Of a stretch of DNA of 64,000 nucleotides, positions 13,364-40,400 are shown one piece after another (within the stretch, counting starts at the first letter, position 1; each line of letters opens with the position of its first letter). The DNA comes from Liolophura sinensis (Eukaryota > Mollusca > Polyplacophora > Chitonida > Chitonidae). The translations under genes were made by a program, and so were the position numbers. The notes beneath the pieces were generated by a model. It made no database searches. It saw only the letters and a list, made by a program, of their open reading frames with translations, and was not told the DNA's origin. Where the stretch lies: the NCBI RefSeq assembly GCF_032854445.1, contig NC_088301.1, positions 27,510,402 through 27,574,401 of the forward strand, given 5' to 3'.

Positions 13364-13441
13364 TTACAATCCCTTGCTGTGTAAGAAGGCTTCCTGGTTA
13401 GGCTCTCTTCCCAGGAAATTCTTCAGCATCACGTCTGCATC
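13364..13441 (-). CDS. THOP1: THOP1-like exon 17 (C-terminus and stop)
   Basis: Acceptor TGGCAG|GAT. Translation [19 protein letters not shown], then LHSKGL and TAA at 13364-13366. It matches the family C-terminus (ML..FLGR.P.Q.AFL.SKGL) and lacks the longer tail of some vertebrate THOP1 proteins. Confidence 0.95.
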   Translation of the reverse strand, partial: DADVMLKNFLGREPNQEAFLHSKGL

Positions 13442-16400
13442 CTGCCAGAAACAATACGCACCAATCACAGTAAACATACGGATTACAAGCACAGCAAATA
13501 CATCACTTCTGTATTTCAACACAAATTTCAACCATGGCTAAGTCCTTCATTTTCCCCCCGATTCCAAGAGTTTCAATGATCTTAGGCACCACGTTTGAAA
13601 AGTAGGATTTATTTGCTTGGCGTTTTATGCTTACTAGAAAATCAGAATTTGTGCCAAGGCTACCAAAGAGCTTGCCTGTATGAGATTCACGGTTTATTTA
13701 TTTATTTGATTGATGTTTTACGCCGTACTCAAGAATATTTCACTTAAACAACGGCGGCCCACATTATGGTCGGAGGAAGCCAGGCTCTCCCACGACCATC
13801 CGCAGGTTGCTGGAAAACCTTCCCACTTACAGCCGGAGAGGATGCCAGCATGAGCTGGACTTGAACTCACAGCGACCGTATTGGTGAGAGGCTCCTGGGT
13901 CATTACGCTGCACTAGTGCGCTAACCAACTGAGTCACGGAGGCCCCCATGAGACTCGTGAATGCAAAATTTCAGGTCAATGCATAAAGAGCTGAAATCGT
14001 GAATTAGGTAATGTACGGTAATTAATACACTCACCGAGTATCACTGATGGAACATCCCCCTTGCATCATTGTGCTTCATGTGCCAGTGAAACTTAAGATG
14101 CCAACCCTAACATTTTGTTTAACAGTGAGTCTAATACACAATACACTAAGTCAGGAATTCAGTAATTTACGGTATTTAATATGTGCACACCCACTCAACA
14201 ATCAAACATGCCCCTCATGCTATTCTGCTGTAAATGTGTGTGAACCCTGATCTCAATACATGCAGCACTTTTTGAGAAGCCACCCCTAACATTTTGTTTA
14301 ACATTGCTTTCTCTATTATTCAGGGTACTACATAAGCTACACCTGTACTATATACAGGTAAGTTAAAATGTAAGTTTCAGCCTCAACAGCAATATTTTTT
14401 TGGAAATTTTAAAAAAAATTTGGGGTAAATCAAACAAATTAGTTCAAAACAGAGCCCCCCCCCCTTTCGAATAAGTTAAACAATTCAACATACCAAGGGA
14501 TACAAGCAGACAGAGCACAAGCCGTGCCTCCTAGTGTGAGAATGTATCTCAATGAACACATAACTTCATGATTCCATCCCTAGTACACCCAGAGTAAAGA
14601 CACAGAGACAAACTTACCAAAGTGCCTCACGGAAGAAGAGACAAAGTAATTCCTGTCATCCTGATCAACTCTGAGGTTCACAACTCATTCCTTACTCAAC
14701 AAACAGAGACAAACTTACTAAAGTGCCTCCCGGCTGAAGAAAGAAAGTAATTCCTGTCATCCTGACCAACTCTTAGGTCCACAACTCATTCCTTACTCAA
14801 CAAACAGTAATGACATAGAGACAAACTTACCAAAGCGCCTCCTGGCAGAAGAAAGAAAGTAATTCCTGTCATCCTGACCAACTCTGAGGTTCACAACTCA
14901 TTCCTTACTCAACAGAGACAAACTTACCAAAGTGCCTCCTGGCTGGAGAATGCATTTTCTGTAATCTTGACCAACTTTTGGGTTCATGACCCCTTCCTTG
15001 CTGAACCGAGAGTAAAACATGTCCATGCTGAACACCTCACTCCACTGTAGAAGCGAAAATGAAAAACGCCCATGTCAATACCATACCATCAGTTTCTAAC
15101 AGTAAGGTTTTACTTCGAGGCACAGTTAAAACAGTATTTCGGTCATTACAGTGCTGGATCGTGGAACACTATGCTGATGTATACACTATCTAAACTTTCC
15201 TCCAAAATCCATGAATAAAGTTCACTTATTCATATGAACCACTGCAATGCCTACAATTCACAAAATACCAAATACAGAATTAAGGAAAATACCAAATACA
15301 GAATTAAGGCGAAGAATACCAAATACAGAATTAAGGAGGGGAATACCAAATACAGAATTAAGGAGGGGAATACCAAATACAGAATTAAGGGGAAGAATAC
15401 CAAATACAGAATTAAGGAGGAGAATACCAAATACAGAATTAAAAAGAAGAATACCAAATACAGAATTAAGGAGGAAGAATACCAAACACAGAATTAAGGA
15501 GGAGAATACCAAACACAGAATTAAGGAGGAAGAATACCAAATATAGAATTAAGGAGAAAGAATACCAAACACAGAATTAAAAAGAAGAATACCAAATATA
15601 GAATTAAGGAGGAAGAATACCAAACACAGAATTAAGGAGGAGAATACCAAATACAGAATTAAGGAGAAGAATACCAAATACAGAATTAAGGGGAAGAATA
15701 CCCAATACAGAATTAAGGAGGAAGAATACCAACTACAGAATTAAGGAGGAAGAATACCAAATACAGAATTAAGGAGGAAGAATACCAAATATAGAATTAA
15801 GGAGGAAGAATACCAAACACAGAATTAAAAAGAATACCAAATATAGAATTAAGGAGGAAGAATACAAAATACAGAATTCAGCAGAAGAATACCAAATACA
15901 GAATTAAGGAGGAAGAATACCAAATATAGAATTAAGGAGAAAGAATACCAAACACAGAATTAAAAAGAAGAATACCAAATATAGAATTAAGGAGGAAGAA
16001 TACCAAACACAGAATTAAGGAGGAGAATACCAAATACAGAATTAAGGAGAAGAATACCAAACACAGAATTAAGGGGAAGAATACCCAATACAGAATTAAG
16101 GGGAAGAATACCAAATACAGAATTAAGGAGGAAGAATACCAAATACAGAATTAAGGAGGAAGAATACCAAATATAGAATTAAGGAGGAAGAATACCAAAC
16201 ACAGAATTAAAAAGAATACCAAATATAGAATTAAGGAGGAAGAATACCAAACACAGAATTAAGGAGGAAGAATACCAAATACAGAATTAAGGAGAAGAAT
16301 ACCAAATACAGAATTAAGGAGAAGAATAACAAATACAGAATTAAGGGGAAGAATACCCAATACAGAATTAAGGAAGAAGAATACCCAATACAGAATTACG

Positions 16401-19400
16401 GAGAAGAATACCAAATACAGAATTAAGGAGGAGAATACCAAATACAGAATTAAAAAGAAGAATACCAAATACAGAATTAAGGGGAAGAATACCAAATACA
16501 GAATTAAAAAGAAGAATACCAAATATAGAATTAAGGGGAAGAATACCCAATACAGAATTAAGGAGGAAGAATACCCAATACAGAATTATGGAGAAGAATA
16601 CCAAATACAGAATTAAAAAGGAGAATACCAAATACAGAAGAATACCAAATACAGAATTAAGGAGGAAGAAAACCAAATACAGAAGAATACCAAATACAGA
16701 ATTAAGGAGAAAGAATACCAAATACAGAATAATACCAAATACAGAATTAAGGAGGAAGAAAACCAAATACAGAAGAATACCAAATACAGAATTAAGGAGG
16801 AAGAATACCAAAAACAGAATTAAGAATACCAAAAACAGAATTAAGGAGAAGAATACCAAATATAGAATTAAGGGGAAGAAAACCAAATACAGAATTAAGG
16901 AGGAAGAATACCAAATACAGAATTCAGCAGAAGAATACCAAATACAGAATTAAGGAGGAAGAATACCAAATATAGAATTAAGGAGAAAGAATACCAAACA
17001 CAGAATTAAAAAGAAGAATACCAAATATAGAATTAAGGAGGAAGAATACCAAACACAGAATTAAGGAGGAGAATACCAAATACAGAATTAAGGAGAAGAA
17101 TACCAAATACAGAATTAAGGGGAAGGATACCCAATACAGAATTAAGGAGGAAGAATACCAAATACAGAATTAAGGAGGAAGAATACCAAATATAGAATTA
17201 AGGAGGAAGAATACCAAACACAGAATTAAAAAGAAGAATACCAAATAAAGAATTAAGGAGGAAGAATACCAAACACAGAATTAAGGAGGAAGAATACCAA
17301 ATACAGAATTAAGGAGAAGAATACCAAACACAGAATTAAGGAGAAGAATAACAAACACAGAATTAAGGGGAAGAATACCCAATACAGAATTAAGGAAGAA
17401 GAATACCCAATACAGAATTACGGAGAAGAATACCAAATACAGAATTAAGGAGGGGAATACCAAATACAGAATTAAGGAGGGGAATACCAAATACAGAATT
17501 AAGGGGAAGAATACCAAATACAGAATTAAGGAGGAGAATACCAAATACAGAATTAAAAAGAAGAATACCAAATACAGAATTAAGGGGAAGAATACCAAAT
17601 ACAGAATTAAAAAGAAGAATACCAAATACAGAATTAAGGGGGAAGAATACCCAATACAGAATTAAAAAGAAGAATACCAAATATAGAATTAAGGGGAAGA
17701 ATACCCAATACAGAATTAAGGAGGAAGAATACCCAATACAGAATTATGGAGAAGAATACCAAATACAGAATTAAAAAGGAGAATACCAAATACAGAAGAA
17801 TACCAAATACAGAATTAAGGAGGAAGAAAACCAAAAACAGAAGAATACCAAATACAGAATTAAGGAGGAAGAATACCAAATACAGAATTAAGGAGGAAGA
17901 AAACCAAATACAGAAGAATACCAAATACAGAATTGAAGAGGAAGAAAACCAAATACAGAAGAATACCAAATACAGAATTAAGGAGAAAGAATACCAAATA
18001 CAGAATAATACCAAATACAGAATTAAGGAGGAAGAAAACCAAATACAGAAGAATACCAAATACAGAATTAAGGAGGAAGAATACCAAAAACAGAATTAAG
18101 AATACCAAAAACAGAATTAAGGAGAAGAATACCAAATACAGAATTAAGGAGGAAGAATACCAAATACAGAAGAATACCAAATACAGAATTAAAGAGGAAG
18201 AAAACCAAATACAGAAGAATACCAAATACAGAATTAAGGAGAAAGAATACCAAATACAGAATAATACCAAATACAGAATTAAGGAGGAAGAAAACCAAAT
18301 ACAGAAGAATACCAAATACAGAATTAAGGAGGAAGAATACCAAAAACAGAATTAAGAATACCAAAAACAGAATTAAGGAGAAGAATACCAAATACAGAAT
18401 TAAGGAGAAGAATACCAAATACAGAATTAAGGAGGAAGAATACCAAATACAGAATTCAGCAGAAGAATACCAAATACAGAATTAAGGAGGAAGAATACCA
18501 AGTATAGAATTAAGGAGAAAGAATACCAAACACAGAATTAAAAAGAAGAATACCAAATATAGAATTAAGGAGGAAGAATACCAAACACAGAATTAAGGAG
18601 GAGAATACCAAATACAGAATTAAGGAGAAGAATACCAAATACAGAATTAAGGGGAAGAATACCCAATACATAATTAAGGAGGAAGAATACCAAATACAGA
18701 ATTAAGGAGGAAGAATACCAAATACAGAATTAAGGAGGAAGAATACCAAATATAGAATTAAGGAGGAAGAATACCAAACACAGAATTAAAAAGAATACCA
18801 AATATAGAATTAAGGAGGAAGAATACCAAACACAGAATTAAGGAGGAAGAATACCAAATACAGAATTAAGGAGAAGAATACCAAATACAGAATTAAGGAG
18901 AAGAATAACAAATACAGAATTAAGGGGAAGAATACCCAATACAGAATTAAGGAAGAAGAATACCCAATACAGAATTACGGAGAAGAATACCAAATACAGA
19001 ATTAAGGAGGAGAATACCAAATACAGAATTAAAAAGAAGAATACCAAATACAGAATTAAGGGGAAGAATACCAAATACAGAATTAAAAAGAAGAATACCA
19101 AATACAGAATTAAGGGGGAAGAATACCAAATACAGAATTAAAAAGAAGAATACCAAATATAGAATTAAGGGGAAGAATACCCAATACAGAATTAAGGAGG
19201 AAGAATACCCAATACAGAATTATGGAGAAGAATACCAAATACAGAATTAAAAAGGAGAATACCAAATACAGAATTCAGCAGAAGAATACCAAATACAGAA
19301 TTAAGGAGGAAGAATACCAAATATAGAATTAAGGAGAAAGAATACCAAACACAGAATTAAAAAGAAGAATACCAAATAAAGAATTAAGGAGGAAGAATAC

Positions 19401-22400
19401 CAAACACAGAATTAAGGAGGAGAATACCAAATACAGAATTAAGAAGAATACCAAATACAGAATTAAGAGGAAGGATACCCAATACAGAATTAAGGAGGAA
19501 GAATACCAAATACAGAATTAAGGAGGAAGAATACCAAATATAGAATTAAGGAGGAAGAATACCAAACACAGAATTAAAAAGAAGAATACCAAATATAGAA
19601 TTAAGGAGGAAGAATACCAAACACAGAATTAAGGAGGAAGAATACCAAATACAGAATTAAGGAGAAGAATACCAAATACAGAATTAAGGAGAAGAATAAC
19701 AAACACAGAATTAAGGGGAAGAATACCCAATACAGAATTAAGGAAGAAGAATACCCAATACAGAATTACGGAGAAGAATACCAAATACAGAATTAAGGAG
19801 GGGAATACCAAATACAGAATTAAGGAGGGGAATACCAAATACAGAATTAAGGGGAAGAATACCAAATACAGAATTAAGGAGGAGAATACCAAATACAGAA
19901 TTAAAAAGAAGAATACCAAATACAGAATTAAGGAGAAGAATACCAAATACAGAATTAAAAAGAAGAATACCAAATACAGAATTAAGGGGGAAGAATACCA
20001 AATACAGAATTAAAAAGAAGAATACCAAATATAGAATTAAGGGGAAGAATACCCAATACAGAATTAAGGAGGAAGAATACCCAATACAGAATTATGGAGA
20101 AGAATACCAAATACAGAATTAAAAAGGAGAATACCAAATACAGAAGAATACCAAATACAGAATTAAGGAGGAAGAAAACCAAATACAGAAGAATACCAAA
20201 TACAGAATTAAGGAGGAAGAATACCAAATACAGAATTAAGGAGGAAGAAAACCAAATACAGAAGAATACCAAATACAGAATTAAAGAGGAAGAAAACCAA
20301 ATACAGAAGAATACCAAATACAGAATTAAGGAGGGGAATACCAAATACAGAATAATACCAAATACAGAATTAAGGAGGAAAAAAACCAAATACAGAAGAA
20401 TACCAAATACAGAATTAAGGAGGAAGAATACCAAAAACAGAATTAAGAATACCAAAAACAGAATTAAGGAGAAGAATACCAAATACAGAATTAAGGAGGA
20501 AGAAAACCAAATACAGAAGAATACCAAATACAGAATTAAAGAGGAAGAAAACCAAATACAGAAGAATACCAAATACAGAATTAAGGAGAAAGAATACCAA
20601 ATACAGAATAATACCAAATACAGAATTAAGGAGGAAGAAAACCAAATACAGAAGAATACCAAATACAGAATTAAGGAGGAAGAATACCAAAAACAGAATT
20701 AAGAATACCAAAAACAGAATTAAGGAGAAGAATACCAAATACAGAATTAAGGGGAAGAATACCAAATACAGAATTAAGGAGGAAGAATACCAAATACAGA
20801 ATTCAGCAGAAGAATACCAAATACAGAATTAAGGAGGAAGAATACCAAATATAGAATTAAGGAGAAAGAATACCAAACACAGAATTAAAAAGAAGAATAC
20901 CAAATATAGAATTAAGGAGGAAGAATACCAAACACAGAATTAAGGAGGAGAATACCAAATACAGAATTAAGGAGAAGAATACCAAATACAGAATTAAGGG
21001 GAAGAATACCCAATACATAATTAAGGAGGAAGAATACCAAATACAGAATTAAGGAGGAAGAATACCAAATACAGAATTAAGGAGGAAGAATACCAAATAC
21101 AGAATTAAGGAGGAAGAATACCAAACACAGAATTAAAAAGAATACCAAATATAGAATTAAGGAGGAAGAATACCAAACACAGAATTAAGGAGGAAGAATA
21201 CCAAATACAGAATTAAGGAGAAGAATACCAAATACAGAATTAAGGAGAAGAATAACAAATACAGAATTAAGGGGAAGAATACCCAATACAGAATTAAGGA
21301 AGAAGAATACCCAATACAGAATTAAGGAGGAGAATACCAAATACAGAATTCAGCAGAATTCAAATAATGACACCTAAATGCAAACATGACCAGAACTGTG
21401 TAGCTATCACAAGCAAACTCACCAGATATCCATAGTACTGGGCATCATACCCTCCAGCCAAGTGCCCAAATGAGGCAGACATGTTAGTGTTTGGAGAAGA
21501 CTCGATTCCCAAAATCTCCTTGGACAGTTTGCCAAACAAGGCGGCGGTATCAGCCTTGAGAATTAAAAAAGACAGCTCACATCTGATACATTTAAAACAA
21601 TTCCTTGAAATTGTCATGAATGAAAAACATCCTCAAAGTGGCCTCTGAAAGCTGTTTTCAGGACTCATTGTTTGAAAAATGTTACTAACATCCTTAGTCT
21701 TCCTTGGCACTTTGATATTAACACTTTGATATCGACACTTTGATATCGGCACTTTGATATCAACACTCTGATATCAACATCTTGAAGCCACAGTTCACAA
21801 TGGCTATTATTTTAACCTTTAGCAAAATATCCAATCAGGATTTGTTCCAAGTTTTAGTTAATTCCAGCTCAATAAATTTGGCTGTCCAAATATGGTAGAA
21901 AACGATTTGCTCAATCATATTCGAGAATACACTTTTTTATTGGCCTCATTTTGTGAAATATACATGTAGCTTCTGTCCAATGTAGTTCACATTGCAAGTT
22001 CACCCTGACGGGTCTTACCTCTGCCTGGGTATGAATGGTTTGGTCAAATGTACCCAGCAGAATCTGTCGCAGATTGAAAACGCCTGCATTTGCCGTACGC
22101 GATCTCAGTAACTTTTTTAACATGTCATCTGGGATACTGCTGCCATCCTTGTAGTGGGCAGACATCCGGCATAGAGGTTCCTTCTCCCAACACCAGTTCT
22201 CCAGCATCTGGGAAGGAGCCTCAACAAAGTCTCTCTCCACGCTCGTCCCACTGTGACAAGACAATCACACAAGATTGTTATATGGCAATCATACCTCAAT
22301 AGTTGAGTCAAACTGTATCTACTTATTTCTATATCTATGGTAAATGTTCAAAAGTTTTAGCCTATTTCACCTCAAATTTTGCATACTTCGCCTGACTGAG

Positions 22401-25400
22401 TTCTTCTGATCTCAGACATGTGTTGTAAGGTTTGTTTGGAATGTAGAATCATATCCTACCGGAATAATGTAATTTTCAGCACCAAATGTGATATTAAAGC
22501 TATTTAATTACATACAAAAATGCACCTATTTGGGCAACATGTAAACACCTTTACCATCAATCTTTAATCTTTGAAAGAGATACAGAAACCATGCTGATTG
22601 GTCGATAGTGGAGAGAAGATTTTCTGGGTTAAATTCTACAGGTTTGGTAAACCAAGAGAAAAGAGCAGTGTCAACCACCACCACTTGCCAGGTCCCTGAT
22701 AAACCCCTGCGAATTAAAGCGAGAGCCAAAATAGCGCGAGCTGGATTGAAACATTTCACCTCATGGGTCAAGCACTGATTGGCTAAGGGGAGCAAAATCA
22801 CCCTCACGAGGCTTGCGACATGGTTTTTGGACATTACAGCAGCTGCTAACAGATTAAATTACACCAGCAACCCGCATAAGATTTAGGAATGGCAGCAATA
22901 CACGTATGTTATTGATGAAGGAAACTTGGGAGTCCTTACAAAAAACCTTTTCCAATTAGCTATATTTACATTATATCTGACAAAATTTTCGAAAAACAAG
23001 CCAGAGCCGAGTTCCAATCTGGCGTTAAAAAAGGGTTGGTTAGTCTGGTGATATCCCTTTCATCTTAGTCATTTGACCACACCATGACAGGGCTGAAATA
23101 CTCCTGATAAGGCAAACTTCAATCATTCATTCTCATAAACTGTTGAAAGCCACACTCAAAAAGTTTTTCCCTTGCAAACTGGCAGTCAGTTATTATGGGG
23201 GGAGAAAACTGGAGTGTCAGGGAGAACCCACAGACCCTGGACAATTTATTAATGTACAAACTTTCCCACTTGATGTGCAGACCCACGCCGTATTGGAGGA
23301 AGACAACAGATTCTTAACCACTTCATTTTCCCTTGCATGTAATGCTCAAAGAGACAGAAGTCTGCCTTAAAACAGATCTAGTGCATTGCAGCTCATGGAA
23401 ATAGGCCTCCTGATTGATTACCCAGGATAAACCATGAGCCTTTGTCAAGTTACCAACAAACTTTTCCATGTGAGACGTACAGACTTGCGCGCCATATTTA
23501 TATTCGAAGGTGGGCTTCACCGAACATCTATTTTCATGTATCTAATGCTCACCTGAAGAGACAGAAGTCTGCCTTAGAACAGATCTGGTGCATCACATGA
23601 CCAAACTCATGGAAATAGGTCTCCACCTGAATTCACACAGAAATTACCACATAAAACAGTCATGATTATTATATAATGAGCTTGTTTAAACACCTGGCAA
23701 CTTTTAACATGTTTTTGTTTTTAGGAGGGGGGTGTGGGGTGACATCTGACTGTGATTTATGCCATCCTCTGTAATATTTTAGTCATACCACCACAATTAG
23801 TGATAGGAGTGGAGGGAAATGCAGCACCTGAAGTACATGGAAGTGAGAAACTTTCCAATACGTCACACAACATCCCAACATGTGACGCAATTTTCCCATA
23901 TGTGACGCAATTTTCCCATGCCCTATCTTTTCAACAGCCTCTGCAACCAATAATTTGAACCATTCTGAAAAAAGAATTCTGGGGAGAAGACAAATCATTT
24001 GCACAGTTTTAGGAAGCTTACATCTTTAGTGGCACAAACAAATCAATTCGGCATCATTTTCTTAATAAATGTGTGCATAAATTCGAAAAAATGCCTCAGT
24101 AGCAGTAGAAAAAGTTGAAGATTTACACTATGTGACAACTTTTGCTCACCTCATCATGGGTCAACAGAGAGGGGTGGTCAGGGGTCGGTTTAGTGAAGTT
24201 TGCTACCATGGCTGCCACTGAGATCTGCCTGTTCCCATCGGCCAATAAACAGCCAGGCTGAAAAGTGAAACACACGTGATTGGCTTAGTAATCACATTTT
24301 GAAATAGGACATGCCATCCTGTCTCACTTGTCGAAGATTATTCTTTCAATCAAAGACAACATAATATTATCTATTTTACAGGTGCTTTGGCCATATCTGG
24401 GATTGCTCTTGGTTTTTCTTTCACAATGGCTGTCAGGTAAAGAAAAGCAAGGAAACATAATCACGCCTTAATAAGAAGTGGACACACAAATCTGCAGAAG
24501 TCGGATTTGAACTTGAAGCCCAGTAGGTCAGGGATTCAGACTAATCAAGTGAACCGTTCGCAATATACGAACATGACAAACTGCAATATTTTCCTTTCAT
24601 GACTCCTGACAGAAAATTCTGTTCCAACAAAGACTTCACTCTTAATATCAATTTTGTCAACACCGGGTCAATACTCACAAACTGAGTACGACCATTACTC
24701 AGCTTCTAGGGCGTATACAACTACCCTTATTCTTCTAAAATTTGAGACAGATATTACTAGTGATGAAAGTAAAATATTACATTTCTTAACCAGCCTTTTG
24801 GAAAAGTAAAGATATGAGTATGTTGTTCATTAGATGATCTAACCCCATGGTAAAAAAAAAACTCAATAATCCTGCAAGAATTGCATACATATGGGCTAAA
24901 ATGAGCAAACCAGGTGTCCCAAAATTTAGAAGAAATACGGTAGTACATTGGAGAGAAATATTGATATACATTATGGTTGTTTACTACATTCAAATCTGAC
25001 AAAAGTATAGGACCAAAATACTCACCCCCTCACCCCCAGCGCCCCCCCCCCCCCCCACCACCACCATCCAATATACTACAGTAACAGGTATCATATAAAA
25101 CATTAGCAGGCAAAAACCAAAGAGAAATTGTCATTAGCAGGCAATAACCAAAGACAAATTATGTCAAAAAACAAAGGGTTTGTGGACACAACAATGTATT
25201 AACATGCAATAACCAATGGACAAGTATCTCAGCAAAGGGATTATTTTCAAGCAAAGGGATTATTTTCAAGCCAAGGTTTACTTGGAAAATTTAATTAAAT
25301 CAGAAGGGAAACATTAAAACCTTCTTGTCCTTTCGTAGTCCACTTTTAGTAGTTCCAAAAAATTTATATGATGGGAAGTTTGGATAACATTTAGAAAGTG

Positions 25401-28400
25401 GGTTTGGTAAATATGCCATTTCAATTTGACACTTTCCGCGAATAAAATTACAGGCACCACTTTCACAATTTTTTGCAAATAAATTTTCATCTGGGATTAT
25501 AGACTTTGTGATGTAACAGAAAGTTTGACTTACAAAATTTTGCGAGAGTGGCCCCCCCCCCCCCCCACCAGGTAAATTCTCAGTAGTTTGAATATAGTAG
25601 TATATTTAATAAGTAGAAATATTCACAATTTTACCAAAAAAAGTTTTCAAGGTTACCTGAATGTCAAACATGGCTGCATGCCCAAACTTCCCTTCCCGAG
25701 GATACAAATCCAGATAAAAATAGCCTAGTAACTCGCCGCTCTTTACATCTCTCACAGAATACTGTTTTAAAAACATGTCAAACCATCACGTAAGGCAGGC
25801 AGTCATGCAAAGGGGAGACAACCCTAACTAACCAAAGGGCTGGTGAGACAGTATGATGGTGAATGGCACACGGACATCCATTCAATATAATCAAGCGGTG
25901 AAGCAAACAACACGTACTGAGACAGATGCTACACAAAACATTCTGCCTGTCTGCTCACAGCCATTCCCCACCACCCAGCATTCACCAGCCCTTTATCTAA
26001 ACAATAAGTGTAAGGCATAAGCTTTAAAGCAGGTATCTGAACACTGAAAAGTACCTGGAGACCAAAACAGGCTGCATGGCCATATTTTCCTTCTCTTGGA
26101 TACAAGTCTAAATAAAAATACCCCAGCAGAGAACCAGTGTCCTGTTCACAGACACTGTACTGTAAAGAAAATTAATATTGTTTGTCAGTGGTACAAGCAA
26201 TAAATTTCTCCTCCATGGATTACCGGATCAATGCAAGTGACAATGACACAACACGTAGAAGTGCAAGTTTTACGAGGAAATTTAATATCTACATCCGTTG
26301 AGATTCTACACTGTGTACGATCCCTGGAAAGTCAGGTCAAGTTTGACAACTGACTGATGGCTGCTTAATACCATACTAAAAAGTTTTTTTTTTATGGGTG
26401 GAAAAAATTTAAGTGCCGAGCATAAATTTATTTATTTATTTATTTCATTTGATTGGTGTTTTATGCCGTACTCAAGAATATTTCACTTATACGACAGCGG
26501 CCAGCATTACGGTGGGAGGAAATCGGGCACAGCCCAGGGGAAACCCACGACCATCTGCAGATTGCTGGCAGACCTTCCCACGTACAGCCGGCCGAGCATA
26601 AATTAGTAACTTTCGGAAAAGTTACTGATAAACTTTCCAACCTCTGACAAACAGATATGCACACCACATTCTTTGCTATTTGTGGAAATAAAATACACAT
26701 TTCCAAAAAGATAAAAAATTGAATGTATATTTTCTTCTTAAAGGTGGTCAAAAACATGTAAAAAAAAAAAATTCGCTCTCGCGATCACCATTAATACTAA
26801 TTTCTGTTGCCTCACTAAATCATCATGCCCTAGACACTAAACTCAATTGGCACATGAACACTGAGCAGACTATCCTTGAACTCTTCATTGTGAGTTTTGT
26901 GTCATCAACTGTTGTATTTGTGTACTGGTTCTGAATCTCAGGCTACAGGCTATACAGATTTTGGTGAAAACAATACATACCATCTTCACGTCCTGTTGCC
27001 ACACATCAGCTGCTGGGACTTCCTCAAACTTTAGACTCAACAACTCCTAACAGAAAACACACAGGAGGTAAAGATTTAGTAATCAGATGTATGTTTAATT
27101 AGACATGCTTTATTAGATTGATTTATTTATTTATTTGATTGGTGTTTTACGCCGTACTCAAGAATATTTCACTTGTAGGACGACAGTCAGTATTATGATG
27201 GGAGGAAACTGGGCAGTGTCCGGGGGGAAACCCACGACAATCTGCAGGTTGCTGGCAGACCTTCCCATGTACAGCCAAAGAGGTGCTTTATAAGAAGACT
27301 TTACTCACAGGGCACATGGCGGAAGGCATAGACAGAAATATGCGCACATTCCAAAGAAATGGACAATGACTGACAACTGTAACCAGGTTGAGCATGGGGG
27401 CGGTCAACTGAAACAGCTCTTATATCTTGTACTCAGCAATGAAATGAATGATGATAGCTTAAGGCTACATCAATAATCTTTTCAGACAAAGCATGGTAAT
27501 TTGGAGACAGGAAGGTTTCAGTTTTGAACGAGGTTATGCAGTATTCACATGGAATTTTTCACACACTCTGGGCAAGAGAGCTTATATAAACGTAAATAAT
27601 ATACATGAACATTTTGGAAAAGTCACATGAGTTTGAATAATCCTAAAAGCAGATTTGCTAAAACTAAAATGCCCATGGAACAATATACAATTTTATTACA
27701 TACACTGTATTATATGGTTCAAATAAAAGGTGAACTTGTACCGGTGATCAGGTCTTATATTTAGAATATGAAGTTATGAAATTTCCATTGTATAACGGTA
27801 CAGTAAATGTTGTGCTGGATTTATGGCTGGCATGTCTAATCCCAGATGTCCTGTCACACCACCACTTCTTCTGACAATGATATTTTTTACATTTCACAAT
27901 CAGATAAAAGGAGTTTTATTGTTTAACCCTGCGGAAGATTAGTGTTTTTTTTTGTGAAAATAATTCAGTAAGTGATAAAATGTTTTACAAATGTCCACAG
28001 TAACACTGTATGGAAAATATTGATCACTTATCTTTCAGACTTTTAAAACTTCACAACATCCGTTTCTGTGAAGTTTATTTTTATGCCAAAAAGACTGATC
28101 ATTTGTAACCAATATGTCAGACAACCTACTGACAACAATATCAATAGTGGCTGGTCCGATACATGCTCTTTCCGGCCGTACGTGGGAAGGTCTGCCAGCA
28201 ACCTGTGGATCGTCGTGGGTTTTCTGCTGGGCTCTGCCCGTTTTTCTTCCACCATAATGTTGGCCGCCGTCGTATAAGTGAAATATTCTTGACTATGGCG
28301 TAAAACACCAATCAAATAAATAAATTAAAAAATGCACGCTCTTGAATAACAATTCAAACAGGTCTGTGGAGAAGTCCTGCCAATTTAAAACCTTTTTGTT

Positions 28401-31400
28401 CATTTTTGCAATATGTTACTCTGTCGACATGCATGTATGTATGTATGCTTGATGTCATACTTAAACAGTTTTTCAGCCATATGAGGAGTCACTATGTACG
28501 TGTGTACATATACTGTGTCTCCTTGTAGCAGGGTGAGTCCATGCCGCCGAAGTGCTCCCTCCACTGAAGCATCATGCCTAACACACTCGAAATGACACCT
28601 CACCCAGTCACATTATACTGACACTGGGCCAACCAGTCCTTTTTCCTTGCTCAAACCTCTCAGAGTTGAGTGTTGAGGCATACTCTTTCTGCATGCTCAC
28701 AAAGAAGTAATTCACAACACTGCACCATAACAGGAGACATTGTGTTTTTTACAAAGACTGGAACCATCTTGCATATGCGAGAAACACTGAACGATCAGGC
28801 CCACAGGGATTTTACCTGGTAAATTTCCAGCAGTCCTTTGGTGACGACATCCATGGGGAAGTATTCCTTCAGTTTGTCATGATCCACAGCGTACTTCTTC
28901 TCCTCAGCCATGTTCATAAAGTATCGGTAGTCCCACATGTTTATCTTGTTGTCAAACTCAAATCCAAATTTCTCGCACTGCAGCACAGACATACTTATCA
29001 TCACAACATACCCATTACATGCCAGAACTTCTTCCAGTGATATTTGTTCAAATATAAAAATTTATATTTCATGCTAGTTGGCAAAATTGCTTTTATATAT
29101 AATGTGCCAATAGCATACTGATAGCTTTTACTTGCCACAACAGAGCCCGAGGGGTGATGAAATTAAGATGAAAGCCGTCATGCATGTATATGCCGAAATT
29201 TAAAATATCAACTTTTTAGAAAAAAAGATACGACATTACAAGGAACATAACAAAACTGCTGATCACAAATTTGCCTTAAAGGAGACATTAAACGAACATG
29301 ATGGTTTTAAGGAAATGATGAAAGATATGCCAAAAAGCAAGAAAAAATTTTTTAGTTTTGAAGTATATTTTATATCAGCCCCAATTTGGTCTCTCACAAC
29401 AAAGTTGTTGTAACAACTATCACCAATCACGTCACGACATCAGGTTACATAACTGAAATACTGATCACTGAAGCCTTAAGGAAAACACGATTATAAGAAG
29501 ACAGTCAATTTTATGTCACATACAGTATTAGTTCCATTCAATTTCTAGAAATGATTTCAAACTTTCCAGTTAATGTTTTACCTGAAGATCTTTCAAATTA
29601 ATGGTAAACTTGCCTCATCTTTCTTGTATTCTAAGAAAAGTTTCACTTCTTCTGCCTGCAGAGGTCGCAGTTTTTCGGACAACTGTTGTAAAAACGTGCT
29701 GACGGCTTTCGGATCCTTCGCCATCCTCATCTCCAGGACAAACTCAGCGTGGGTGGAGTAGCCAAGTATCTCTGCTTTCTGGGAAGGGGAGGGGAAATAT
29801 GGGGATCATGTGTACAAAATATTCAAAAGCACAAAATACTGACAATTTTTCGCAACTTTAAAACATGTAATTTGAATAACAGACAACAAAAATACAATGG
29901 ATTGAAGATCTGTTTTCTATTTGACTGGTTTTAACCTTATGAAGTTTTCACTAATAAATCAAACCAGGCTTTAATAGGTTCAAGTTTGTGAGCTGAGAAG
30001 AAAAGTTTTGCTTTTCACTCTGCGGAATTACGCTGGAGAAGACATATGTAAGTGACCCATTCAGATAGTGAAGCCTCTATTAATCTGAAGGACAAATGTT
30101 CGAATCAATTTAGAATCTTTCGAATATTTTCACAGAAAGTCCTTAGGATTTTACCTCATGCCGTAGTTTCACCAGTTCTTCCAGTATTGCAGAGTTCTCT
30201 TTCATACATCTGGAACAATCACATTCAAGTCACTGTGTGACACAAAAAGGAACATCTGAATAGAACTCGCATCATGGCAATATTCAGGAGATAAATTTAT
30301 TTATTTATTTATTTGATTGGTGTTTTACGCCGTACTCAAGAATATTTCACTTATACGATGGCGGCCAGCATTATGGTGGGTGGAAACCGGACAGAGCCCG
30401 GGGGAAACCCATGACCATCCACAGGTTGCTGACCTACCCACGTACGGCCGGAGAGGAAGCCAGCATTAGACTCACAGGGACTGCATTGGTGAGAGACTCC
30501 TGGGTTATTATGCTGCGCTAGCGCGCTAACCAACAGAGTTTGCTGTTATTGTCTTCATACTCAAGACTTTTTCACTTATTGGATGATAGGGGGCCGGAGA
30601 GGAAGCAAGCATGAGCGGTCATCATCCATGTAGTGATGGACACATTTACCTGTCATCATCCATGTAGTGTTGAACACATTTAACGGTCATCATCCATGCA
30701 GTGATCAACACATTTAACTGTCAGCATACATAAATGCCTCAAAAACCAATGCACAAATACCTACTGACGAATGGACCATTGCCTCTGATCTGGAATTACA
30801 TCTATCTGATTGTTTGAAGAAGAAGCAAACTGTAGCAAAAACTTCTCAGTAACTGACCTGGAGTGAGTGAGTGAGTGCTTGGGGTTTAACGTCGTACTCG
30901 ACAATTTTTCCGTCATATGATGACGAAGGAATGCTTGGGGTGTATGTAATCTACCTCCTTGTTGCAGGACAGATTTCCACCGCTCATTTATCTAGTGCTG
31001 CTTCACTGAGACGACTTACTTGGGTAAGTAAGGCAAGTAAGCTGCCCCACCCGAGCCATTATACTGATACGGGGCAACCAGTCGTTGCACTATCCCCTTC
31101 ATGCTAAACACCTAGCGAGGAAGTCACAACTTCCTCTTTTTAAAGTCTTAGGTGTGACTCAACCCAGGACTGATCCTGGATCCACCGCTCCCGAAGCGGA
31201 CAACTCACCTGGAATGAAAAGCAATCTCCAGCTTTTTCCTAGTCTCTTGGTTACGAGCTTTCTTCATACAGGGGAAGTAATGTGGGTATTTCAGGGACAC
31301 TTTACACTTTCCATCTTCTGTCTGAAACAAAGAATGAAGAAAAATCCAAATTTTACATAAGGCTTCCTACAGGAACTCAGGACAAAAAGCTTCTAAATTG

Positions 31401-34400
31401 ACAAGGACCCAGTGTGAAAGCTGTTGACCGTGCAACATGTCCTTTACATGGTTACCTGCACAGTGCTGAAACAGTCTAACAAAAGACGGATTTACACTGC
31501 TTGTGTCACACAAAAGATGTACCAAAGAAACAATGGTTAATTACAATTATTTATTTATTTATTTATTGGATTGATGTTTTGCGCAGGATGCTGGCAGACC
31601 TTCCCAGGTACTAAATTACAATTCAACCCAACTTGGGATGCTTCTCAATCTCATTAAAATCAGACTGTATGTACATTGCCTCGCTCACAACGATCTGACA
31701 CACTTCCTATCCCCTGTGCGTTCAATGACCGTCAGTGAGAGGACATAAACAACTAAAGGTCACTAACGCCAATTCCAGCCAATCAATATGAGGCTTTCTA
31801 AAGGGCTTATATTTGCCGGGAACAGTCAATGTCTGTTGGAAAAGATGGGGAATTCCCATTTCCCCGCAGAGGAGTAAGCTTGGCTTAGCAACATGGTGGA
31901 CACGTAAAAACACATTATAACTTTCCTTTAAACAAGTGTTTATTCTGCAGATTTAAGTTTGTCATATTGAAACAATTGGCTGATGGGAGTACAACAACAA
32001 GAAAATGGTACGATCCCAATGTAAAACTTTCACAGGAGCGCACATAAAGCGGTACATAAAGCAAACATCCTAATATTTCTTCCTGCTCCTTCTTCAGTTT
32101 TTACATCTGAAACTGCCACAATACAGTTTTAACTTGTTCTTGAAGCCATGACAAGAGGTCACTTGCTTTGCTGTCAGATATTGACTTTGCCGCCATGCTG
32201 TGGCTTCATGGCTTCATAAGATTTTCCCCAAGTTACCCCCTGGGGACAGACAAAAGTCCCCGCATACAAAACCCCACGGTCAGTATTAAATGCATATCGT
32301 AAATGACAAAAGCTGTTTGCTTGTTTAAGAAAACTTGAAACATTCTTCCTGAAGAGACGTTTTTCAGATATCATTACATGTTTGCAATCAATAGAACTCC
32401 TTCTTACTTGTTCAATCTCCACGAATTCTAACCGTTTTTTATGACATTGGAAAGAGCTACATATCACTCAGTCGTATACAGAATGCTCGACCTCCATTCC
32501 ACGCTTACCCAAAAACTAAAGAAGTCTACAAGTATGGTAAACAACTGCTGTATTGCAGCATGTGTTTGACTTTTTTTCCTGTTCTAAGAACACAAATCTC
32601 ATATGTGTCATTTGTTCCTATCCTGGAAATTTGTTAATTACTCCTATCCTGGAAATCTGTCATTTATTCCTATCCTGGAAATTTGTCAATTACTCCTATC
32701 CTGGAAATCTGTCAGTTGTCCCTATCCTGGAAATTTACATGCTACAGTCTAACACCTCTAAAGAAAATAGTTGTTTTAACCACAGAAAACAAAAGAAACA
32801 AGCCGTGTAGGGTTTGATCTTTCAGAGTACAGATGTTCAAAAACATGCAGTTAATACTGAATGTTTCTGATTTAATGTTAGGATCAATGATTCATTATAT
32901 TTATCATATACATCCATGTAGGGCATATAACCTAGAAAAAAACACACAGTAACCTATGAGAACAAATTATTATTTTTTAGAGTATTCAAAAATAATATTT
33001 TTTTTGTGAACTATAATATGATTTGATTTAAATTTCGAAATAATCGAAATTTTTAAATACATCTGTTATACTGAACACATTAAATTAAATCACATGCCTG
33101 CAAACTTGACAGGAAAACCAAGTCACACTATATGACTTTCCGCCAACAAATATTTAACATCATGTTTGTTAGACTGTCAGATATGTTTTGTCATTTAATT
33201 AAGACGATGGGGCTTTTGTCCGTCTGGATTTTTGTTCACAGGGCTATTGTCCACCTGGATTTTTGTTCACGGGGCTATTGTCCGCCTGGATTTTCGTTAA
33301 CGGGGCTTTTGTCCTGGATTCGGTCTGCTTCGGGTCTATCCATGACTGCTGCCTTGTTTCAGCAGCGCATCTGTGATTGGTTGAAAGAGACACACCCCTT
33401 GAATGAACCAGGGATAGGGAGTGTGTTATGAAACGATATACATACATTCTGATTTTAATCAGATTGCATGCTTTTATACTTTGGCATTGAAGACAATGTC
33501 TGCTCTCTGTGAACGCAGGTTCAAACATCTGTATTTCACAAGGTACAGAATAAACTCCATAAAACACTTTACGGACAATCCAATCTAAAGCAAAATGGAT
33601 CAGCAATTTAAATTGGACTCGCATTTCTCCGAAAATAATAGGCTTTGAATCAAACTAAAAAATATTAATGAAACGACGAAAAATGAACGGACATCAATGG
33701 GACATTAAATCTTTAGTACACTAGGACAATTATAAGTTAAAATTGAACACTCATGCCTAAATAGATGCTCCCCTGGGGCTTTCCAGTGGATTCCAGGAAA
33801 ATTCAGAAAATGTCCGTTCTTCACAAATGCTCAATAGATATCATAACATCTTTGAAGACTTACCTTTTCTAAATTTTTCACAAAATCTTCTGGCAGACCA
33901 GCTGAAAGTAACACGATAGTTTAGACTGTTACATATCGTCACACCTGTTTTATGAAACTCAAGCTTAAACCACTGACTTTGGGCAAGTTTCTGACCAGCT
34001 TTCCCACATGCAACATACAGATATGCACACTATTTTGGTGAAAGGTAAGTCGTCATCAATAAACATTAGACTGTGCACAAGCCCACACAAATTTACTGTC
34101 ACAAAGGGCGACTGTGACAAATCTATATATTCCCTGGCCAGGGCCGAGTTTGAATACCAGTGAATTAAAGCAAGCACCACTAGACCAAGGCCAGCTCCCA
34201 ACTCCACAACAGCAAAACCTGAGCATTACTAACGTTTATTCTAATAAATGCAATAATCCTAAGGTAACTGTTGAAAAATAAAGATCAAATCATCAATATA
34301 ATATATAAGTGGGTACTTCTAGAAAACAGTTTAGTTGAAAACAAGTACAGATGCCTTAGTTCTCTTGGTCTCAGCCAACTCAGTGTGCCAACGGCCCATG

Positions 34401-37400
34401 ACAAGACAGAGGAGGTTAAAAATTTGGCTGATTGACAAGCAAACACAGAGACAGAATGACTTATAATGCCATCTATTACAATTTTATATTAAAATTAGAA
34501 ACTTGAATTCTGAAACGTTTTCTAGGGTATTCTTTGGCAATATAATATTTATTTCTTTCTTTATTTATTTGATTGGTGTTTTACGCCGTACTCAAGAATA
34601 TTTCACTTATACGACGGCAGCCAGCATTATGGTGGAAGGAAACCGGGCAGAGCCCGGATGAAACCCACGACCATCCACAGGTTTCTGGCAGACCTTCCCA
34701 CTTACTGACAATATAATATCACAATATGGTTATTATAATTTGATCAGCCCTAAATCAATAATGTACGTACTCAGACCTTACATACCTTTCCAAACAACTC
34801 ACATGTATATGTTCAAGGGGGTGGTGGGGGCTACAAACACCACAGAATGGGTCCCCAGAAACTGGCTTCTGTAAATCTTGTGATATAGTCACTCGCTTGA
34901 ATTCTAATCTTAACTGCGGTCAGCACAGTCTCCACTACTGCTTAGCCTTGTTCTAAAATAACTGTGTTTGTCTCCCCTTACCTAGCTCTTCTACCGTAAA
35001 TTCTAGTATTGTATTCTCTTCATTCAAGTTCTTGTTGAAGTCTATTCCTAGGTCACTCATCCTTTTTTTGATAGTTTTAATCTTCTCTTGTTTCTCCTTG
35101 GGTAAATGTAAGCCTGCAAAAAAAAAAAAAAAAAAAAAGAAATAAGTAAGTGAGTGCTTGGGGTTTAACGTCGTACTTAACAATTTTTCAGTCATATGAC
35201 AACGAAGGAATCCTTAGGGTGTATGTAATGTGCCTCCTTGTTGCAGGACGCATTTCCACCGCTCTTTTATCTAGTGCTGCTTCACTGAGACGACTTACCG
35301 CAAGTTAGCCGCCCCATCCAATCCATTATACTGATACGGGTCAACCAGTCGTTGCACTATCCCCTCATGCTGAACGCCAAGCCATCGGTTTCATGCACAA
35401 ATGAAACCGATGGGTTGTTCATACTGCTTTCTACATTTATTTATTTATCTATTTGATTGGTGTTTTACGCCGTACTCAAGAATATTTCACTTATACCACG
35501 GCAGCCAGCATTATGGTGGGAGGAAACCGGGCAGAGAAACCCACGATCATCTGCAGGTTGCCGCCAGACCTTCCCACTTACGGCTGGAGAGGAAGCCAGC
35601 CAGAGCTGGACTTGAACTCACAGCGACCGCATTGGTGAGAGGCTTCAGCGCGCTAACCGACAGAGCCACGGAGGCCCCACTGCTTTACAGGTATATGTAT
35701 ATGTATGTATAATATGTGTATGAATGTGTGGGCTATTATGTCATAGCTTTACACATGTACCTCGAAAGACATAGAGCAACATGACACTGTGATAGGTGTT
35801 TACAAAATATGCCCTGACCCACTTTTGGGGAAATATATAGAGAAGCATTTACCAACACTGGGTAGTTTAGAACTGCTCACAGTGAACACTCAAGCGCAAG
35901 GAAAATTGTCCAAATCTAAAATCTGCTAAAAACGACAAAAATAACGCAATGTTTCCAAAATTAATTATATCCTAACAATAGTGGTAAGAAAGCGTGAATC
36001 AAATCTGAGCAAAACTTACTAAGTTTTTGAGATATCTTTGCATATCAAGGCTATGACAAACACACACATCCTAAGACACAACCACCAACGAATGGGTGCA
36101 TTCGCAAGGGGGCATAACAACTTGACTGTATATCAGCAACTTTGGCCCGTTGTCTACTACACTTGACTTACCATTCCTCTTGCCCAGTTTGATCAGCCTC
36201 TCCAGGTACCTCGATGCCTCGGGCTTCAATCCATCTCCCTGCTTCTTCTGGAAGGTCACCAGGGTATCAAACACATCCTGACGCATGCTGACATGAACAG
36301 TCAAAACACCAGGTGGAGGAGTTATGTAACACAGGGCTTATGATGCAGAGTAAACATGTATGTATTGGCTCAAATATTCAGGGCTCTAAATATTTTATAT
36401 TTCATTTGATGTGCTCTTCAGAGTGATGACCTCAACAAAATTGAGGTCGGCAAATATGATTTATTTATTTCATTGGTGTTTTACGCTGTACGCAAGAATA
36501 TTTCACTTATATGATGGCGGCCAGCATCCCGGTGGGAGGAAACCAGGCAGAGCACAACACAAATCCACAACCATCCATCGGTTGCTGCCAGACCTTCCCA
36601 CTTTCGGCCGGAGAGGAAGCCAGCAAGAGCTGGACTTGAACTCACAGCGACTGCATTGGTGAGAGGCTCCTGGGTCATTTCGCTGCACTAATCAACTGAG
36701 CCTCGGACCCCCCCCACCCCTGTCAAATATGAGCCAAAGGTATTAAATGTATTAAGACTGCATTGTAAAAAATACAACAAACACTCATTTAAGTGTCTGA
36801 AATCATCATGATAACAAAGTTGTCTATGTGATGATCTGGGCTTAATTTGAGGTCATCATTTTTACACTGAGCTGTTAAAAACATTTGAATGAACAAACCT
36901 TTTGATCCCTGAATACTGTATACTTGAAAATTTACACAATGCAATTATCAAATTGCGTGTCTACAGCTGGTCAGAGAAGTTAGCATACTACATATAGGTG
37001 AAAGTATTAATCATAGGCTACTCAATCACAGGCTACTCAATCAAAGGTTACTCAATCAAAGGCTACTCAATCAAAGGCTACTCAATCATAGGCTACTCAA
37101 TCATAGGCTACGGTTGGGTACAGAAGGTTATTCCACACATGTATGATGATGTGGCCTTCAAATCACTGTGGGGGCCTCCGTGGCCCAGTTGGTTAGCGTG
37201 CTAAGACAGTGTAATCCCGCAGCCCCCATCAGGTGCTAAGTGATTGCTCTGTTTTCTTCTTTGATGTAACAGGAGTATTTTATACATTATATGGAATGGT
37301 CGCCCTGTTCAAGGCAGGCTTGGAACCTGCATCTTCCAAGTCTTAGCAATTGAAAAGCAATCGGACCATGGCCTGCTACCTTATTTGCCTCTAAAAAAAT

Positions 37401-40400
37401 GACTTTTTGGGGCAAATTTCAAGTCATTTACTGTACAAACTACACATTCTATCACCAACTGTGATAAATAATGACAGCAACCCACCTCATTTCTACATCA
37501 AACTCTGACAGTTTTTTATCAGCTTCCACGCTAGCATCCCTCATAGCTTTGTCGCTGAATACATGCTGGACAAAATCTAGGTTGTTTCTCCTCACAGAGT
37601 ATTCGCAGTCCCCATCTGCCAGGGTCTGAAAACAAGCAATTCAAATATGTTTATCATGGGTTTTCGATCAGTGTCAGGTTTCGATCAGGTTATTCTGGTT
37701 GATCAATCCTGGTTGATCAATCCTGGTTGATCAATCCTGGATGATCAATCTTAACAGGGGGCCAAATAACAACACTCTAATTCCTCATCCTTTTTGCATA
37801 TCAAAGAGCAACTCTCACTGCATTTTATGCAACTTTTATGCAAATTTTGGTGATAAAACTACGCTGGTTGGGCTTAGCAAACCATAATTGTACCATTGTA
37901 CACTGAACAATTTCATTAAGATACACTTGAATATACTTCTTATTCATTAAGATACACTTGAATAAACACACAAAAAGGTTGAAGAATTACAGTAGTAAGT
38001 AGTTTTCTAAGTTATGTCTATAACAATGAAATTGCGCCAACTCGGACTGCTGTACAGGGAGTAGTTCCAGAACACCTGTAAAAGCCTGTCTAAGTTGTAG
38101 CCAAGAAATCAGCTGTGAACTATTAATATTGGGTCAGGTCTAGTTCACAGCTCCATATAGGAACAGAGCCTTCCTCCGACTGGTTCGGCAGAACGAAAAA
38201 AATTCAAGTGAATTACATTCACCGACCACTTCGTGGTCTTCTGGACAATTTTTATCTCATTCCGTGGTGTATATGTATATATATGCCACGAAATGAGATG
38301 AAGTAAGCCCACTCGTCTCGAATACGAGTGGTAATTACATACTCTTACTTAATTACTTATAATTCATTAACTCGTGCAGCTATTGTCTTTGTGTGCGGCG
38401 CATGCACACCTGTGGTTGATTTTTGAAAAAAAGAACTCTCACAGTATAAATTTTTTTTTCGTTTCAAAAGTTTCTGGCTCTTCATACTTCTGCACTCTAC
38501 ATTAAGCTTTCAAAATAACATTACTATCATCTTTGCATGCTGAGCTGTTCTATATATTAGAATACTTATAAATAACTAGATAAATCTTTTACATGATGTC
38601 AAATTCTCAATAGACATCAAGATGATGTCACCACGGGCTGAGTAGCTCAAAACAGACCTTATTTCCAAGTTCGAGCCGACATTTTGTGAGGAAATATCAA
38701 ATAAAGGTCAGTGTCAATGGTTACAAACGGGGCATAAATGTCTTGCGGACAAACCATGTATTAAGTGGGTTAGGATACTTATTTATTTGATTGGTGTTTT
38801 ACGCCATACTCAAGAATATTTCACTTATACGACGGTGGCCAGCATTATGGTGGGAGGAATCCGGGCACAGCCCGGAGGAAACACACGACCATCCAAAGGT
38901 TGCTGGCAGACCTTCCCACGTACAGCCGGAGAGGAAGCCAGCATGAGCTGGACTTGAACTCACAGCGACTGCATTGGTGAGAAACTCCTGGGTCATTACG
39001 CTGTGCTAGTGCGTTAACCAACTGAGCCACGGAGGCCCCGATTAGGACATTAAGGATCGCGTATTTAGCCAACTTCGCCGATGGGGTAGCTGAATACAGA
39101 TACGTCATAGCTGGGAGCGCACTCTGTCCCCGTTAAGGATGGAAGCAGTCCTTTGACCGGATTTTCTTGCTAGATTACGTTCATGTTACGGCCTTGACCG
39201 GCTAATGGGTCAAAAGTATTTTGGGATGTTTATATTTGAGTGATTTCCATTCGTACCATAACCTTCACGGTCAACAGATGGCGTGATCCGGAATTGGTCA
39301 AACTGATCCACAACTACTGAATTTTTCGTCACCCACTTAAATGCCTGGTAAATTCACAAGAAGTTTTTAAGACATAAAAAATGGTACCCAGAAGACAGAT
39401 GAAGAATTTGCCTGCAAATGACATACAGATGATGGCACTATGCGAAGCAGAATCGGTTTTGCACATGAGAGAATAAAAAGTGATCCGAAAGTGGTAAACT
39501 AACTGTATACTCCCACCCGGAAGACTCCAACTCCTTTTCTTATATTGGCCTGGCGTCGTTGGAATCTCAATGTTAACAGTGTAAACTTCGTAGTCAACGA
39601 AGGTCCAGGCCGATTCTCTTCGTTATCGCACAAGTCTCGTGCAAAAAGAAGATACCATCCTACCAAGACCTACTTTCTGCATCATGTTGAACAGCTACAT
39701 ATAGGTCTATGCTCATGTCCTACTTCAAAGTCTAGCAATGGGAAGATGGCGGACACGGTTGAGGAGCGTGTGCCATGGAAGCCTTTATGGCTATAATAAA
39801 TCTACTCTAAAGCTCGTAAGGCCATATGGTGGCGTTGCAGTGGGTGCAGAAAGCAGGTCTTTAGGTTGGGTTCTATGAGGTCTATTATTTGTATCAGTCT
39901 AGTTTGATAACAAAGAGAATCGGCCTGGACCTATGTTGAGTACGAAATTAATACTGTTAGCGTCGAGACTCCAACGACGCTAGGCCAATATAAGAAAAGG
40001 AGTTGGAGTCTTTCGGACCCAACTGTGTGCACGTATGGAATGAACATTAGGGAGGGAGGGGGAGGGGTCTTACTTTTATCACATTTTCGTATGTTACTTC
40101 ATCTGGTTTCAATGCCCCTACAGCATCATGGACGGCTTTAGATTTGGTCATCAGTTCGTCCGCACTTTTAGCAATCCCTTCCGCTGTCAGCTTCCATGAC
40201 AGTCTCAGTTCGTTGCCAGGTATGGACGCCGACTGTTGTTGTTGTTGTGAAGTCATGCCTGCCAAATGCCGACTCAAGCTTTTCCCACGAACTGAGCTTC
40301 TAGGTTTCAGTTGGAAAAGTGAAGTGAACAACCAGTGTTGCGACAGCCGAGGAGATGGGAGATACAATTCAGCACTTCTGCTGCTTTGTTTAGCACAAGC

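Follow-up and report, generated by a model that had tools for sequence, protein, structure and literature searches.

The choice between tandemly duplicated exons is already well known, molluscs included. In the oyster Crassostrea virginica, exon 10 of CvAOX is tandemly duplicated and two forms are found in RNA, the second being favoured under air exposure (PMC5589949). The homologous exons 6a and 6e of coq-2 are mutually exclusive and remodel the enzyme core, also in molluscs; both the splicing and the product switch have been shown experimentally in C. elegans, and similar exons occur in several phyla (PMC7434440). Exons 4a and 4b of OGDH are mutually exclusive alternatives in a metabolic enzyme (PMC7969005). 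Here, we analyze a pair of tandem exon copies, 11a and 11b, in a THOP1/neurolysin-type peptidase gene (family M3) of the chiton Liolophura sinensis, located in a 64,000-nt window of contig NC_088301.1.

Like CvAOX, the chiton gene encodes a mollusc enzyme in which one tandem exon copy is conserved and the other is changed around functional sites, so that one gene could yield two forms. Unlike the CvAOX exon, which is terminal and seen in both forms in RNA, the chiton exon is internal and known from genomic sequence alone. The likeness to coq-2 is in homologous exons that affect the enzyme core, although here the pair comes from the genome of one species, while OGDH shares with the chiton gene exon alternatives in a metabolic enzyme. 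For M3 peptidases, we found no report of tandem-exon choice among the matches listed from open-licence full text (for two of the searches, 20 of 24 and 20 of 204; subscription papers were outside the scope), and in a THOP1 review (PMC7565970) the terms "splic" and "exon" are both absent. For alternative splicing in chitons, the matches listed were two genome papers. The preliminary description of the locus likewise knew of no such case for M3 peptidases.

We consider it probable, though well short of certain, that an old duplication of exon 11 has been kept as an alternatively used functional pair, with 11b changing peptide handling. The tandem duplication would have produced two functional coding exons, used one per transcript, with 11a as the default and 11b as a minor form restricted to particular tissues or conditions. 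Exon 11b would alter a hairpin turn and four residues in or beside the last strand, and thereby peptide preference or turnover.

The exon 11a/11b pair

The gene lies on the minus strand of the window. With 11a included, the product is 746 residues long, and over its final 671 residues it matches the NCBI protein "thimet oligopeptidase-like [Liolophura sinensis]" (hereafter P0003) exactly. The features around the pair are as follows.

26981..27046, minus strand: exon 10, ends in phase 0
26055..26159, minus strand: exon 11a, 105 nt, phase 0-0, 35 residues, present in P0003
25762..26054, minus strand: intron between 11a and 11b, 293 nt
25657..25761, minus strand: exon 11b, tandem, putatively alternative copy, 105 nt, phase 0-0, 35 residues, not in P0003
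24150..24257, minus strand: exon 12, begins in phase 0

Direct reading of both exons (26159-26055 and 25761-25657) bore out the coordinates, length, phase and identity (25 of 35 residues) given in the preliminary description. Each copy is preceded by AG and followed by GT, and, as exon 10 ends and exon 12 begins in phase 0, the frame is kept in 10-11a-12, in 10-11b-12, with both copies and with neither. The similarity of the two copies is far beyond chance: tblastn with either exon recovers the other (E 2e-14 to 4e-14), and each exon alone passes the Pfam Peptidase_M3 cut-off of 27 bits (32.6 for 11a and 33.2 for 11b), 11b suiting the profile as well as 11a does.

The copies differ at 39 of 105 nucleotides, distributed over the codon positions as 10/7/22 (p 0.008). 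Six of the ten residue differences fall within residues 4-10, and four are at positions 26, 31, 33, and 34. At the start, 11b retains the family-typical form (VRD..SGELL), while 11a has drifted, with C at position 4 and E at position 5, neither of which is found there in any of 119 homologues. Toward the end, it is 11a that has the usual residues, C being shared by 122 and G by 118 of 128 sequences, and 11b that is altered. Out of 155 fetched proteins, these 128 are the ones whose region was located by a motif pattern; this set understates M and D, because the 27 dropped sequences include proteins with FGHAAMFD, the form found in 11b. The 12-residue core described as kept between the copies is indeed kept, but it is nothing special to the pair, being near invariant across the 128 homologues compared.

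A paralogue or a retrocopy as the source of 11b is not supported. The 801-bp region examined has a single place in the genome, and the two other M3 places found (a lower bound), searched over 10-kb stretches, show nothing that matches exon 11 significantly. These two appear MIPEP-like and oligopeptidase-A-like, the labels being ours and based on tblastn matches.

Evidence of selection on exon 11b

Between 11a and 11b, 14 codons have changed silently and 10 with replacement. The comparison of dN and dS proposed in the preliminary description gives a saturated dS and dN of about 0.26. Simulated neutral branches were calibrated to the observed silent change, with 0.56 of the same-residue codons differing. 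At this synonymous divergence, no stop-free copy with 10 or fewer replacements arose among 1000 neutral copies of 11b. Of the 10 residues in which 11b departs from 11a, 9 are found at the corresponding position among 119 homologues, the maximum in 5000 neutral simulations being 6; this comparison calls for caution, as similarity to the 11b form determined the ranking of the homologues and 11a, not the ancestor, was the starting point of the simulation.

The same gene provides an internal control in exon 13, which also has a tandem copy.

23553..23626, minus strand: exon 13, zinc-binding HEFGH
23334..23410, minus strand: dead copy of exon 13 with the first bases of its intron, HEFGH and donor lost

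This copy is identical to exon 13 at 70 of 77 ungapped positions (91%), has three deletions (3, 4, and 4 nt), and has lost the donor; judged by its sequence, it is dead and younger than 11b. Exon 11b has no indels, while several would be expected at the indel/substitution ratio of the exon 13 copy; depending on the share of change assigned to 11b, the chance of finding none is 0.0002 to 0.035, with the ratio derived from one small copy. The exon 13 copy is already broken at about 9% divergence. With saturated synonymous sites and an intact frame, 11b looks maintained by selection and not like a decaying copy. The neutral simulations, the codon-position bias, the fit of residues to homologues, and the dead exon 13 copy all support the earlier suggestion of selection on both copies, and purifying selection on both is seen here within one genome.

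A non-functional duplicate that is still open by chance, to which the lack of observed transcripts and the recurrence of tandem duplications in the gene (exons 13 and 16) could point, is thus very improbable, given the three neutral comparisons, the fate of the exon 13 copy, and the agreement of 11b residues with the family profile and with a form present in bacterial M3 proteins.

Structural position of the exchanged residues

In the predicted structure of P0003 (mean pLDDT 92.5; TM 0.96 against human neurolysin), exon 11 corresponds to residues 391-425, with strands at 389-395, 401-408, and 420-425. In this model of the 11a form, the 35 exchanged residues make up a beta-hairpin and a strand ahead of the zinc helix, strand 420-425 ending 42 residues before the first zinc histidine.

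In a solved relative, K-26-DCP, residues R415, G416, A418, W419, M420, and S422 contact the bound inhibitor, and ACE A356 and D358 are tabulated in the rows of M420 and S422 (PMC5157764). With the 5l43 sequence placed without gaps on the shared K-x-G-x-A motif (our own reading, the tool-made alignment being to Dcp and not to THOP1), R415, M420, and S422 align with exon positions 26, 31, and 33, where 11a and 11b have Y/F, C/M, and G/D, respectively. Hence three of the four late differences align with ligand-contact positions.

The motif FGHAAMFD of 11b is shared with bacterial M3 proteins. A search seeded with 11b words has it in 26 of the first 31 proteins listed, which shows that the motif exists but not how frequent it is; three of these 26 proteins are named Candidatus Pacebacteria or Paceibacterota. 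Among 119 listed relatives, the only HAAM, as opposed to HAAC in 117, is that of Limulus (AAMFELQ). Methionine and aspartate at these positions of 11b thus appear natural for the family.

The preliminary description had pointed out that one isoform would lack the Cys typical of vertebrate THOP1 and neurolysin. Exon 11b does lack it (C/M), but the hint that this loss matters is weakened, as the residue corresponds to rat Cys427, which has a relative solvent exposure of 0.04 and is not glutathionylated under oxidised glutathione (PMC3382611). A redox switch via the Cys loss is therefore not favoured: with this residue buried and unmodified in the rat enzyme, the most likely difference of the 11b form is one of peptide preference or turnover, not of redox control. 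More tentatively, and with somewhat less than even confidence, we suggest that the exchange of an exon encoding a substrate-contact strand gives one THOP/NLN-type gene two peptide specificities, with FGHAAMFD reached as in some bacterial M3 peptidases; the choice of exon would then adjust how neuropeptides or other short peptides are turned over.

Splicing, transcripts, and alternative readings

Mutually exclusive splicing, the reading of the preliminary description, is an inference. The splice sites had been called good. This holds for the AG and GT flanking both exons but not for their surroundings: by a scoring matrix, the two donors take the second and fourth weakest places among 17; both are without G at +5, a trait shared with two further exons, and the tract at the acceptor of 11b is short and broken up by AAAA.

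Several observations weigh against alternative use of the two exons or against its proposed effect. No device enforcing exclusivity was found: the frame is kept either way, the intron between the copies is 293 nt long, and the AG-free zone before 11b is an ordinary 60 nt. Steric exclusion by a too-short intron and a distant branch point are thus not supported, and the 60-nt zone sets the chiton pair apart from OGDH exons 4a/4b. The only NCBI protein seen for the species contains 11a only, is a single cluster member, and carries no "isoform X" label, even though RNA from five tissues of the species exists (digestive gland, foot, gill, gonad, and heart; BioProject PRJNA973839). If RNA was used in the annotation, this weighs against abundant 11b transcripts in the tissues it came from. 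No 11b-type animal protein was present among the matches listed in three protein searches (120 of 2335, 4 of 4, and 33 of 33). The D at position 33, the single exception among the ten replacements, occurs in none of the 119 homologues. The enrichment of changes at contact positions is not significant (3 of 6 contacts compared to 7 of 29 other positions, Fisher p 0.21), and M420 of K-26-DCP contacts the inhibitor by main-chain hydrogen bonds (PMC5157764), so that a side-chain change there may do little.

As to the distribution of 11b, the protein collection searched is clustered at 90% identity, so that isoforms ten residues apart would be hidden in other species. The only chiton named among the listed matches is L. 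sinensis itself. The single-sequence mollusc clusters of Pomacea, Pinctada, Mercenaria, Babylonia, and Physella all have AAC, so nothing points to a widely shared 11b among annotated molluscs. A short-fragment protein search for splice-junction pieces listed 4 of 5 candidates; three do not resemble 11b, and the fourth, P0126, stops short of the diagnostic part.

In one rival reading, 11b was long a functional alternative exon and is now silent or nearly so, a relic with an intact frame. The use of 11a alone in the NCBI protein and the weak look of both donors and of the 11b acceptor agree with it. Still, we regard it as unlikely, as 11b has no stop, indel, or loss of a splice dinucleotide after saturating synonymous divergence, while the exon 13 copy broke at about 9% divergence.

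Less likely again is a cassette role, in which some transcripts include 11b in addition to 11a and the protein gains 35 residues with a repeated hairpin and strand, perhaps as an inactive or regulatory form. Since the frame is kept with both exons, the intron is 293 nt, and the AG-free zone is normal, nothing found forbids an 11a-11b splice. However, a scan of 120 listed homologues found the core once in 118 and twice in none, two being missed by the pattern, and in the model the additional strands would be inserted beside the active site. Alternative use of 11a and 11b, one per transcript, remains our preferred reading.

The gene and its protein

The species was first called L. japonica in the genome paper (PMC11068029) and was renamed L. 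sinensis in a correction (PMC12441733). The window contains one complete THOP1/neurolysin-type peptidase gene, with 17 exons (exon 11 counted once) positioned by splice sites and frame, and it is the only THOP/NLN-type gene found in the genome, the counts being lower bounds. The product has a Pfam Peptidase_M3 domain (511 bits). Residues H467, E468, H471, and E496 of P0003, which are the established zinc ligands of the family (HExxH and a downstream Glu), are invariant in a 26-row alignment. Zinc site, domain, and predicted fold thus support an M3A peptidase of the thimet oligopeptidase/neurolysin type, and the complete 17-exon reading together with the Pfam score supports the family named in the preliminary description. 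The remaining features of the gene are listed below.

40074..40481, minus strand: exon 1, with 40481 taken as the first ATG; start of the NCBI protein at codon 76
37486..37625, minus strand: exon 2, by splice sites and frame
36172..36287, minus strand: exon 3, by splice sites and frame
34982..35113, minus strand: exon 4, by splice sites and frame
33864..33901, minus strand: exon 5, by splice sites and frame
31209..31321, minus strand: exon 6, by splice sites and frame
30155..30209, minus strand: exon 7, by splice sites and frame
29614..29778, minus strand: exon 8, GC donor (at 29614)
28816..28977, minus strand: exon 9, by splice sites and frame
22019..22250, minus strand: exon 14, third zinc ligand Glu
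21423..21554, minus strand: exon 15, by splice sites and frame
14928..15044, minus strand: exon 16, by splice sites and frame
14593..14918, minus strand: 3'-end fragments of exon 16 carrying its donor motif (at 14830, 14718, and 14617)
13364..13441, minus strand: exon 17, includes the stop codon

The frame runs 75 codons upstream of the NCBI start (40257-40481, minus strand), and another mollusc protein (P0006) is similarly extended; the extension is perhaps a mitochondrial leader translated from the earlier start. Three further copies of the exon 16 3' end with its donor motif lie in the intron that follows, two of them with stops.

Repeats in the introns

The intron between 11a and 11b contains a 13-bp perfect inverted repeat (25834-25846 and 25982-25994); chance seldom produces an inverted repeat of this length, which arose in 5 of 4000 Markov sequences. 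The whole intron folds no better than its shuffles (z -1.06, with 29 of 200 shuffles as good), and we did not use the hairpin as evidence. The 161-bp stretch bounded by the repeats (25834-25994) has no second copy in the window and is possibly a small mobile element.

A large tandem-repeat array at 15219-21349, with units such as IPNTELRR and NTKYRIK in frame, takes up a large part of the 6.4-kb intron that separates exons 15 and 16. The introns also carry a repeated element of about 145-270 bp, whose copies are 75-92% alike (e.g., 38776-39045, 36459-36714, 26430-26591, and 13693-13952). Its sequence is reminiscent of a mollusc SINE.

Significance

Exon duplicates at different fates within one gene, that is, kept, dead, and partial, form a compact case for studying the survival of duplicated exons. 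If both forms are made, M3 peptidases would gain their first described switch by exon choice, as far as the open-licence matches listed show, and it would act on a substrate-touching strand. The pair also allows one to ask how Y/F, C/M, and G/D tune peptide selection, against bacterial enzymes with the same motif. Vertebrate THOP1 and neurolysin are two related peptidases with different preferences, encoded by two genes, whereas the chiton has one gene with the variation confined to 35 residues. If the more tentative reading with two peptide specificities is correct, splicing would do in the chiton what vertebrates do with two genes.
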